NCBI RefSeq assembly: GCF_900113045.1
Contig: NZ_FONY01000010.1
Coordinates: 62,001 to 126,000, forward strand
DNA: 64,000 nt
Origin: Thermoflexibacter ruber
Lineage (GTDB): Bacteria; Bacteroidota; Bacteroidia; Cytophagales; Thermoflexibacteraceae
Reading direction: 5' to 3'
Under the pieces are notes generated by a model. The model was given only the letters and a program-made list of their open reading frames with translations, was not told the DNA's origin and did not search any database. This document shows, in pieces, positions 32,035 to 54,757 of this stretch. How positions within the stretch are numbered: position 1 is the stretch's first letter; the number at the start of each line of letters is the position of its first letter. Made by a program: the position numbers and the translations under genes.

Positions 32035-32886
32035 ATGATTGCAAAAAAATACATCAATCCTTTTACCGATTTCGGCTTCAAGAAAATTTTTGGGGAAGAG
32101 GCAAACAAAGACCTGCTCATTGATTTTTTGAATGAACTGCTCACAGACAAAGGCAAAATCATAGACCTGACTTATTTGAAAAGCGAGCATTTGGGGACTA
32201 CTGACTTGGATAGAAAGGCAATCTTTGACCTATATTGTGAAAACGAAAAAGGAGAAAAATTCATTGTGGAAATGCAAAGAGCAAAACAGGATTTTTTTAA
32301 GGATAGGAGTTTATACTACGCCACTTTTCCCATTCAAGAACAGGCAAAGCGAGGCGATTGGAACTATCAATTGAAAGGGGTTTATTCCATAGCTATTACC
32401 GACTTTCTCATAGACGATGACAAAGCAAACAAAAACAAGATAGTGCATGACATCAGACTGATAGAAAAGGAAACACATAAGATATTTTATGACAAGTTGC
32501 GCTTTATCTATGTAGAAATCAAGAAGTTTGACAAGACCTTAGAGGAGATAGAAACACATTTTGACAAGTGGTTGTATGTGCTAAAAAACTTAGTAAAAAT
32601 AGAGGAGATACCAGCTAAGTTGCAAGAAAAAGTATTTAAAAAGCTGTTTCAAATCGCAGAGATTGCACGTTTTGATGAGAAGCAGTTGCAATCTTACCGA
32701 GATAGCGAAAAGAACTATTTGGACTTTACAGCCTCTTTGGAAACTTCGTTTAATGAAGGGAAAATTGAAGGAAAAATTGAAATAGCCAAGAACATGATAA
32801 GAAAAGGCTTTGACAATGAAACCATTGGAGAGGTAACAAGCTTAACCCTTGAGCAGATAGAAGCATTGAGGAAGGAGGTGAAGTAG
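32035..32886 (+). CDS. Rpn/PD-(D/E)XK nuclease-family transposase-like protein
   Basis: 283 residues. It opens with the family signature (INPFTDFGFKKIFGEE). The nuclease core shows DLYCENEKGEKFIVEMQRA (Asp, then E-x-Q), and a helical C-terminal half follows, ending in a short charged repeat (NEGKIEGKIEIAKNMIRKG). These proteins are multi-copy, fast-evolving recombination-promoting nucleases in many Bacteroidota. It lies next to palindromes and a transposase remnant, in keeping with an accessory patch. Confidence 0.88.
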   Translation: MIAKKYINPFTDFGFKKIFGEEANKDLLIDFLNELLTDKGKIIDLTYLKSEHLGTTDLDRKAIFDLYCENEKGEKFIVEMQRAKQDFFKDRSLYYATFPIQEQAKRGDWNYQLKGVYSIAITDFLIDDDKANKNKIVHDIRLIEKETHKIFYDKLRFIYVEIKKFDKTLEEIETHFDKWLYVLKNLVKIEEIPAKLQEKVFKKLFQIAEIARFDEKQLQSYRDSEKNYLDFTASLETSFNEGKIEGKIEIAKNMIRKGFDNETIGEVTSLTLEQIEALRKEVK

Positions 32887-33042
32887 GAGAAGTTGTAAAC
32901 TTTTATTTCTACCCGTTCTTCTTAGACTTAAACGCAGTGTGTCTAAGACGTTCTATCTGCCAGTTTCTGATTGGCGTGTAGGTGCGTAAGAATGAAAAAT
33001 AAGTTTTATTTCTTGGTAGTCAGCAGGTTATGTAAAGTATAG

Positions 33043-33068
33043 TTTTTCGCGTGAAAATACGCGAAAAA
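33043..33068. repeat. 26-nt palindrome (REP-like)
   Basis: Arms TTTTTCGCGT (33043-33052) and ACGCGAAAAA (33059-33068) are perfectly complementary around a six-base loop. It resembles the palindromes at 54022-54047 and 54061-54086 in length, in the TTTC..GTG arm pattern and in its AT-rich loop. Confidence 0.65.
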
Positions 33069-33080
33069 GCGTATTTTGCC

Positions 33081-33124
33081 AGTAATTTATATATTATCTC
33101 TCGGTACGAAGTGCATAAATTACT
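33081..33124. repeat. Inverted repeat beside the transposase remnant
   Basis: Arms AGTAATTTAT (33081-33090) and ATAAATTACT (33115-33124) are perfect over ten bases with a 24-base loop. It may be part of an insertion-sequence end. Confidence 0.45.
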
Positions 33125-33159
33125 TCTCTGTCCTTTTGGTTTGGATTGTGTGCAGGTGG

Positions 33160-33490
33160 CGAGTAAGGAGAATAAGGTGCAGTTTAACTACCTAAGCCTT
33201 CAACAAGCAATAAGACCAAATGGGTAGCCTTTTCATACCCAACTTTAAACGAAAAAAAATAGATACCGATGAGTATTTAGTAAGAGTATTGCATTACATA
33301 CACTTTAACCCACTGAAACACCAGTTAGAAAAAATACTGAAGCTATTTCTTGTCATAGTTTTTTGGTAGAGAAAACACTTTCTTGGAAAGGCAAAAAGTT
33401 ATTGAATTATTTGGTAGCATAGCAGATTTTTCAGAATTACCACCTAAAAAACTTATTGATAGACAAATTGGAAACGTTTTAGAAAATTAG
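33160..33490 (+). pseudogene. Decayed Y1/RAYT-like transposase
   Basis: Three reading frames joined by frameshifts give a recognisable C-terminal part of an IS200-like or REP-associated tyrosine transposase. Frame one ends LQQAIRPNG (to about 33224). Frame two runs GSLFIPNFKRKK, DEYLVRVLHYIHFNPLKH (about 33223-33325). Frame three gives LERQKVIELFG and ends IGNVLEN with a stop at 33490. The YIHFNP motif is characteristic. The N-terminal HUH part is missing, so the gene is non-functional. Confidence 0.75.
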
Positions 33491-52704: not shown

Positions 52705-53940
52705 ATGAAATTAAAAATAGCTGAAAATCAAACCAATAAATGCAATAACTTGGCTTTTGCCTTGTGTATGCTTTCCTACCTGATTGGAGGAACGGTGGCT
52801 ACTTTGATGTCTGCTTACTTGCCTGTGGCAATTCCTGAGCTATTGCAAAAGGTAGTTTCAGAGCAAGAATTAGGAGAAATAGGTGCGTACTTAAACTCCT
52901 CATTTATTTATGGTTGGATGGTCGGCGGAATGTGTATGGGCTTTCTCAGCGACAAAATAGGTCGTGTCAAAGCCTTGTCTTTTTCGGTAGGTCTGTATGG
53001 CTTATTCACTCTATTGGTCGTTTTTGTTCCTCATTGGCAGGTTTTATTGGCTTATCGCTTTTTGGCGGGCATGGGCGTAGGAGGAGTTTTGCTCATTAGC
53101 ACTGTTTACATTGCAGAAATTTGGAAAGAGGACAGTCGCCCTGTGGCTTTGGGCATTTTGGCGGTAGCTTTCCCCATAGGCATCGTTTTGACAGGAGGCT
53201 TAAATGTCGTTTTTTCTTATTGGAAACAAGCATTTTGGCTGGGAGTTTTGCCTTTGATTTTGTCAATCCTTGTTTTTGCTTTATTGCCTGAATCTGAAAG
53301 GTGGAAAAAAAGCAAAAGTACAAAACAACAAACCCGCTCAAGCGATTTTTCTCCTGAGATTCGGCAAAATTTGTTTCTTGGTACATTGATTTTCGGTTCG
53401 GTCTTGGTGGCATTGTGGGCAATTTTTTCTTGGATACCGACTTGGATTCAAAACCTTTTAGCAGGAGTTTCTGATGGGCAAAAAGAAAGAGGCTTGACCA
53501 TGATGTTGCTTGGCATGGGGGGCATTGTTGGGGGAGTTTTTTCAGGTTTTCTCATCAAAAAGTTAGGCATACGCACCACTTTGATACTCACATTTTTAGG
53601 TTGTATTTTAGCTTGTTGCTTGCTTTTTTTAACCAATACGAGTTTTTCGTCTATTATTTACCTTGAATTGGCTTTGTTGTCTTTGTTTTTTGGGATTAGT
53701 CAAGGCTCGCTTTCCAGCTATATTCCTTCACTTTTCCCTACCATTATCAGAGCAACAGCCACAGGTTTTTGCTTTAATATTGGCAGGTTTTTTACAGCCA
53801 CAGGTGTATTTTTCGTAGGAACTTTAGTAAGTCTTTTTGGTGGCTTTGGTAATACTTTGTCTGCTTTTTCGCTTGCTTTCATCTTTGCTTTGTTAGGTAC
53901 TTTCCTAAGCAAAGATACCCAAGGGAGAATGGTGGAGTAG
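52705..53940 (+). CDS. MFS transporter
   Basis: 411 residues from ATG 52705 (a TTG at 52699 is in frame). Twelve membrane segments are seen. The MFS signature between helices 2 and 3 is GFLSDKIGRVKALS, and the second-half counterpart is GFLIKKLGIRTT. It resembles the sugar/acid-type MFS group with long N-terminal helices. Substrate unknown. It lies between AhpD-like genes, which suggests import or export of a compound linked to their chemistry. Confidence 0.92.
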   Translation: MKLKIAENQTNKCNNLAFALCMLSYLIGGTVATLMSAYLPVAIPELLQKVVSEQELGEIGAYLNSSFIYGWMVGGMCMGFLSDKIGRVKALSFSVGLYGLFTLLVVFVPHWQVLLAYRFLAGMGVGGVLLISTVYIAEIWKEDSRPVALGILAVAFPIGIVLTGGLNVVFSYWKQAFWLGVLPLILSILVFALLPESERWKKSKSTKQQTRSSDFSPEIRQNLFLGTLIFGSVLVALWAIFSWIPTWIQNLLAGVSDGQKERGLTMMLLGMGGIVGGVFSGFLIKKLGIRTTLILTFLGCILACCLLFLTNTSFSSIIYLELALLSLFFGISQGSLSSYIPSLFPTIIRATATGFCFNIGRFFTATGVFFVGTLVSLFGGFGNTLSAFSLAFIFALLGTFLSKDTQGRMVE

Positions 53941-54021
53941 TTATGAATAGTTATAAGTTATGAATTAATACAAATAATTGATAATTAGTAATTTGTGTAA
54001 TAATTATAATATAAATTTACG

Positions 54022-54047
54022 TTTTTCATGTGATAACACATGAAAAA
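54022..54047. repeat. 26-nt palindrome, first of a pair
   Basis: Arms TTTTTCATGTG (54022-54032) and CACATGAAAAA (54037-54047) are perfect around the loop ATAA. Confidence 0.75.
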
Positions 54048-54060
54048 TGGTTTAATACAC

Positions 54061-54086
54061 TGTTTCACGTGTTATCACGTGAAACA
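54061..54086. repeat. 26-nt palindrome, second of a pair
   Basis: Arms TGTTTCACGTG (54061-54071) and CACGTGAAACA (54076-54086) are perfect around the loop TTAT, the reverse complement of the first copy's loop. The two copies thus face each other, as in a BIME. Confidence 0.75.
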
Positions 54087-54644: not shown

Positions 54645-54673
54645 ACAATATCTTAAACCTTTCAAGTTTTCAA

Positions 54674-54688
54674 AACCTGACAGGTTTG
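54674..54688. repeat. Short palindrome AAACCTGACAGGTTT
   Basis: A 15-base near-perfect palindrome between AhpD-like copies 2 and 3. The motif is of a type seen repeatedly in intergenic DNA of Bacteroidota; here only one copy is noted. Confidence 0.5.
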
Positions 54689-54757
54689 AGTAAGTCTTAA
54701 ATAAATAACTAATTATTAATATCTTACATCTCAAAAAAACATCTCACAAACAAAAAC

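Follow-up and report, generated by a model that had tools for sequence, protein, structure and literature searches.

A REP-type palindrome family in Thermoflexibacter and its likely RAYT partner

The 26-nt palindrome and the adjoining inverted repeat at positions 33043-33122 of the window (the whole 64 000-nt stretch of Thermoflexibacter ruber DNA analysed here) are best read as a degenerate pair of a genus-restricted REP family. An intact RAYT on contig C50 is most likely its cognate enzyme and would have helped the copies to spread, the window copy would have come with a Rhs/Rpn module, and the transposase remnant next to it would be there by juxtaposition. We put the probability of this reading as a whole at about 0.78.

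The palindromes lie in a mosaic patch

The palindrome at 33043-33068 (TTTTTCGCGT-GAAAAT-ACGCGAAAAA) is perfect, with arms of 10 bases, as an earlier note on this DNA had described. Its apex, GTG-AAAA-TAC, is a single base away from the family consensus GTG-loop-CAC. The second inverted repeat reported in that note is real and is a long form of the palindrome. Also correctly recognized were the adjacent Rpn-type gene and the frameshifted transposase with a YIHFNP motif downstream, which in addition carries an in-frame stop (Table 1).

Table 1. Features of the patch and of the second palindrome pair in the window.
Feature	Position	Strand	Remarks
Rpn-type gene (PDDEXK_2), patch neighbour	32035..32886	+	Pfam PF12784 247 bits, TIGR01784 100 bits
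Spacer repeat, left flank of the palindrome	32888..33038	+	several genome copies in Rhs clusters
5' foot ATAG (variant of NTAG foot)	33039..33042	+	
Short REP-type palindrome, 26 nt	33043..33068	.	training sequence of model R1
Long palindrome form, ~40 nt, loop insert CTCTCGGTACGAAGT	33083..33122	.	training sequence of model R2
Rhs core scrap (GLDCVQVASKENKVQFN)	33138..33188	+	blastn 82-90% to C27, C111, C68, C19
Decayed Y1 transposase, C-terminal half, other RAYT-like clade	~33196..33490	+	
Short palindrome, first of pair	54022..54047	.	not a training sequence
Short palindrome, second of pair, 13 nt away	54061..54086	.	not a training sequence

Copies of the Rpn gene recur in Rhs clusters of the same genome (G000), and window 32888-33053 matches 15 other places in it at E<=1e-7. 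Rhs core-type reading frames were present on at least five contigs (C49, C79, C68, C116, C90), and the same CAAAGTATAG precedes a palindrome at two places on C49 and one on C79. A scrap of Rhs core separates the palindromes from the transposase remnant. The patch is a mosaic of Rpn gene, Rhs-linked spacer repeat, two palindromes, Rhs scrap and remnant. Because its left flank is common to Rhs-linked loci, the window palindrome probably came with the Rhs/Rpn-linked repeat module. The flavin reductase gene beside the patch has an orthologue on contig C318 of the sister genome G002, which offered no clean empty site for the patch, since the neighbourhood is rearranged, with a different gene upstream. 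The small contigs L046-L053 carry clusters in which the spacer repeat links copies of the Rpn gene, small ORFs, variable tips and the ends of Rhs cores.

A single perfect hairpin in such a window is near chance; a genome-wide family is not. The window contains four distinct perfect hairpins (arms >=10, loops 3-8), three of them family members, as compared with 0-2 in each of 10 first-order Markov sequences (mean 0.8), so that any one of them alone is unremarkable. There were no Rfam matches in the window at gathering thresholds, and none of its three tandem repeats lies at the patch.

The second pair (54022-54086) has copies at six places in G002, 90-95% identical over 47-73 nt, with different surroundings where examined; a search there for an orthologue of its flanks returned repeats only. 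Beside it, at 53936-54015, lies an AT-rich repeat of ~80 nt with >15 matches in G002 at 75-89%, and an AAACCTG(A/T)CAGG-type palindrome is found nearby at 54647-54693.

A dispersed and mostly extragenic family

The earlier note had proposed that genome copies of the arm pattern be counted, and the count revealed a dispersed family: with <=3 mismatches the pattern occurred at nine places in the 5.5 Mb genome, as against none for the reversed control. Covariance models built without flanks from 16 short forms (R1) and six long forms (R2) together gave at least 82 tabled places, including weak ones with E up to ~7, of which a part may be due to chance. The table joins both searches with strand duplicates merged; one of the nine pattern places (C66:8073, a poor palindrome) and a weak long form (L055:5219-5256) were left out. 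Copy numbers are lower bounds because only the best 150 of 3978 candidates were scored in one of the searches. Thirteen of the tabled places surround one RAYT gene and 69 are dispersed at 56 loci, comprising 43 singles and 13 pairs; the members of a pair are 11-23 nt apart (12-14 nt in 9 of the 13). R1 at E<=0.01, with stricter filters than those of the tabling searches, matched all three genomes of the genus and none of 56 other genomes of the family and order.

In its short form the palindrome measures 26 nt and has a loop of 4 nt. In its long form, arms of the same kind enclose a loop insert, which is CTCTCGGTACGAAGT or one of its variants or, in Rhs-linked copies, of the CACCCCGCGTC type. 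The inserts (e.g. window 33097-33112) are GC-richer and of several kinds: CTCTCGGTACGAAGT, CACCCCGCGTC and, in G002, ACCCGTAGTGGAACGGT. Among 60 ungapped 26-mers (57 distinct), stem pairs differed and pairing was retained, the second pair being T-A, C-G, G-C or A-T, a count biased toward pairing because a structure model picked the copies. Exact GTG-4 nt-CAC was present in 35 of the 60.

The flanks, which were outside the models, are also patterned. Around the 63 dispersed copies that were not used to train R1, a 3' foot TTGA/TGGA was found on 20 of 126 sides (~1.3 expected from window base frequencies) and a 5' foot NTAG/NTTG on 36 of 126 (~5.1 expected). Both feet occurred on one strand in 12 of the 69 dispersed copies. 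The canonical 5' foot GT[AG]G was rare (GTAG at four feet in the array and two dispersed feet, GTGG at none), and we therefore do not class the family with the canonical GTAG REPs, in line with the lack of GT[AG]G that PMC6006769 gives for subclass 2.6 hairpins.

Of the 82 palindrome midpoints, 14 fell inside ORFs of >=100 aa, as compared with a fraction of 0.80 for random nearby positions; the ORFs were called mechanically, and upstream extensions may account for part of the 14. As is usual for REPs, the palindromes are short, numerous and for the most part extragenic. No published description of it was recognized in a literature search that covered few subscription journals.

An extragenic bias, with some copies shortly upstream of start codons, would also be expected if the palindromes did not move and served as regulator binding sites, as terminators or as hairpins in mRNA. 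We regard this as very unlikely: stem sequence differs while pairing stays, loops tolerate inserts of ~14 nt, and the near-identical copies of the 54022-54086 pair occupy six differently surrounded places in G002 (where examined). For terminators, moreover, the arms are the wrong way round, with a T-rich 5' arm and an A-rich 3' arm. The palindromes may nevertheless have side effects on expression.

An intact RAYT within a palindrome array

The earlier note had also suggested a search for an intact RAYT with these palindromes on its flanks, and one was found at C50:72341-72913. Its 191-aa product passes the NCBIfam model NF047646 (82.5 bits, cut-off 80); the Pfam Y1_Tnp score of 18 bits lies below the cut-off of 23. 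A profile of the protein with seven relatives matches the TnpAREP structure 4er8 (E 1.6e-6). The motifs NHIH, FWQ, YIHQNP and YSSAR, the last with a serine pair after the tyrosine, fit Quentin subclass 2.6, with a HuH-to-Y distance of 76 by our count as compared with the median of 82 given in the accessible text of PMC6006769.

Four of the 13 tabled palindromes of the array lie upstream of the gene, one over the start codon and eight downstream; three of the upstream four are situated past a neighbouring acetyltransferase gene. Downstream, plus-oriented copies with GTAG/TGGA feet are interleaved with minus-oriented TTAG..TTGA copies, an alternation of orientations that resembles BIMEs. A long palindrome (L055:4311-4349) includes the start codon of the RAYT in its 3' arm, so that the enzyme could act on its own gene. 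An AAACCTG(A/T)CAGG-type palindrome is present on the same contig inside the metH reading frame (L055:9404-9436).

Two other RAYTs of the genome were considered as partners and rejected. The C59 RAYT has palindromes of its own (CCCAACAGTT.., CACCTACTT..), and at the C116 RAYT R1 found no palindromes. A classical IS200/IS605 element was likewise set aside. The earlier note had named descent of the remnant from such an element as grounds for giving up its view, and the outcome was negative: the Y---Q motif is absent from both the C50 RAYT and the remnant (YIHFNP), and NCBIfam transpos_IS200 matched neither. Taken together, the data support the reading of these palindromes as the REPs of a RAYT.

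The sister genomes provide evidence that counts against the link. In G002 the orthologue of the C50 RAYT is 5'-truncated, with residues 57-191 remaining; it too lies upstream of metH and is followed by three palindromes. In G001 (62% complete), the best RAYT match is 30% identical. Palindromes are present in both genomes, despite the truncated RAYT in one and the lack of a close RAYT match in the other. A second RAYT in G002 (L170:2133-2915), 36% identical, lies upstream of the truncated one, and the palindromes on its flanks form another family, GGTCAAGATT-tgt-AATCTTGACC.

By analogy with Escherichia coli TnpAREP, the C50 RAYT would bind the single-stranded hairpin through foot and apex, would nick beside it, and would thereby help copies to spread both singly and as inverted pairs. 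Mobilization of this kind is what we infer from the analogy; the role of the enzyme could be maintenance alone. The copy in the window would then have arrived as part of the Rhs/Rpn-linked module.

The remnant belongs to a different clade

The earlier note had further proposed that the decayed transposase was the relic of the founder of the palindrome family. The remnant does adjoin two palindromes, and its read-through gave a weak match to positions 96-137 of NCBIfam REP_Tyr_transpos (25.4 bits, E 1e-5, cut-off 80); no Pfam family matched the read-through. Its YIHFNP motif is encoded at 33295-33312. The best relatives are proteins of other genera, 39-40% identical, and the relative encoded in the same genome, on C77, is 33% identical. 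In a FastTree tree the remnant grouped with nine such proteins (support 1.0), apart from the clade of the C50 RAYT.

The palindromes at these nine relatives are of another kind, with stems of 10-16 bp and mostly 3-nt loops. Long stems lie on both sides of the gene at six loci, on one side at one and on neither at two; at two of the nine a palindrome is also found inside the gene. On C77, ACACCTGTCAGGTTT-tta-AAACCTG(T/A)CAGGTGT flanks the gene on each side. Since both most of the relatives and the C77 gene carry different palindromes, the remnant's own partners were probably different ones too, to judge from these sequences. The C77 flanking palindromes (L237:1695-1727 and 2394-2428) are of the AAACCTG(A/T)CAGG type, which is probably the REP family of the C77 RAYT-like gene itself.

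We therefore give almost no credence to the founder proposal: the clade is a different one, other palindromes stand at most relatives, the patch is a mosaic in which an Rhs-linked repeat lies to the left of the palindromes and an Rhs scrap between them and the remnant, and an intact RAYT occupies a palindrome array elsewhere. The remnant, from a different RAYT-like clade, would have come to lie beside the palindromes by juxtaposition.

Terminal repeats and target duplications in some pairs

To judge by their terminal inverted repeats and 5-bp duplications, some of the pairs may be moved as miniature elements of the DDE type. All three G002 pairs with two exact TAGGACTTACG ends (C213, C260, C344) showed 5-bp target duplications, as judged by eye, and two of the 13 pairs in G000 (C75:241906, C50:163352) combined degenerate ends with 5-bp duplications. 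Separate from the pairs, G002 also contains a miniature element that is 177-178 nt long and bounded by TAGGACTTACGCA..TGCGTAAGTCCTA (e.g. L208:1501-1677, L216:1501-1678); several of its copies have 5-bp target duplications.

These five pairs, and the fact that the separate 178-nt element shares the TAGGACTTACG ends, invite the view that the palindrome pairs are MITEs moved by a DDE transposase, with TAGGACTTACG ends and a 5-bp duplication, and that the RAYT neighbourhood is secondary. As an account of the family this is unlikely. The other 11 dispersed pairs of G000, the 43 singles and the pairs in the window had no such ends on inspection by eye, and of four exact TAGGACTTACG matches in G000 none is at a palindrome. 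The array around the RAYT shows NTAG/TTGA-type feet instead, and in other families of the order, too, related RAYTs have comparable hairpins.

The hairpin apex in other genera

RAYT loci of relatives were searched with a regular expression for hairpins with the apex (A/G)TG-loop-CA. The 29 loci include the G002 orthologue, and several come from one genome. There were 33 such hairpins at 10 of the loci, as compared with 0.33 per shuffled set (simple base shuffling of the 29 loci, done three times). At these 10 loci the stems differ from those of T. ruber and the apex matches: L114 has four copies of GTGTCAGGTG-ttat-CACCTGACAC, L115 has GTGTCAGGTG-ataa-CACCTGACAC, L137 has three of ATTGCTTGTG-tcct-CACAAGCAAT, and L122 has ATGGTTCGTG-gga-CACGAACCAT. 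GGC (or GCC on the other side) was adjacent to 22 of the 33 apex hairpins, as compared with one of 86 other hairpins. The remaining 19 loci had no hairpin with this apex; the G002 orthologue is among them, yet R1 detects palindromes there.

A tentative proposal, which we think may well prove wrong, is that subclass 2.6 RAYTs of Bacteroidota read the apex and not a GTAG foot, so that stems drift between genera but GTG-loop-CAC persists together with a short tail on the 3' side (GGC in other genera), and that in Thermoflexibacter a cut-and-paste element has in addition captured hairpin pairs. If so, REPs would gain a second, DDE-driven vehicle able to outlive a broken RAYT, as in G002.

Comparison with known systems

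The family described here brings together an intact enzyme, many copies, stem variation that preserves pairing and an apex common to relatives, and thereby offers a concrete candidate for a recognition rule. In addition, its REP pairs may travel by two transposition routes. Experimental studies of how REPs are recognized deal, in the accessible text of PMC8266576, with group 2 and group 3 enzymes.

Subclass 2.6 TnpAREP/RAYT proteins (Bertels group 5) are described for Bacteroidota in the accessible text of Quentin et al. (2018; PMC6006769). They have the motifs NH[LIV]H, WQ and YIH[QN]NP, a serine pair after the tyrosine, a length of ~179 and an insertion of ~21 aa that separates helix C from strand 4; their hairpins are atypical, with no general GT[AG]G foot, and have copies elsewhere in the genome. 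The C50 RAYT shares the motifs, the flanking hairpins with genome copies and the lack of a general GT[AG]G foot. What differs is that the hairpin family is detailed here (26- and 40-nt forms, pairs, NTAG/NTTG feet, GTG-loop-CAC apex), with possible overlap with the hairpins of Table S1 of that paper. For subclass 2.4 the same text reports a palindrome inside the gene. The relatives of the remnant share NH[FLI]H, YIHxNP and palindromes beside or, in two of nine, within the gene, a resemblance by which alone the remnant may be placed in that subclass.

In the accessible text of PMC3116915, REPINs consist of two REP hairpins in inverted orientation, set apart by a short spacer and linked to RAYTs. 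Inverted hairpin doublets with a short spacer and a tie to a RAYT occur here too, but singles dominate (43 of the 56 tabled dispersed loci), spacers are 11-23 nt, and some pairs have terminal inverted repeats and duplications. GTAG-tagged REPs, as presented in the accessible text of PMC3733652, are short hairpins that carry an unpaired tag at one of their feet and form dimers, some within larger palindromes; the repeats listed there with GTAG are from other phyla, and only CGTC repeats are given for Bacteroidetes. The present family likewise has short foot-tagged hairpins and dimers, some of these enclosed in larger palindromes, but here GTAG is a minority tag (six feet). What is new is a further REP family, its kind being already known, and a proposed apex rule.
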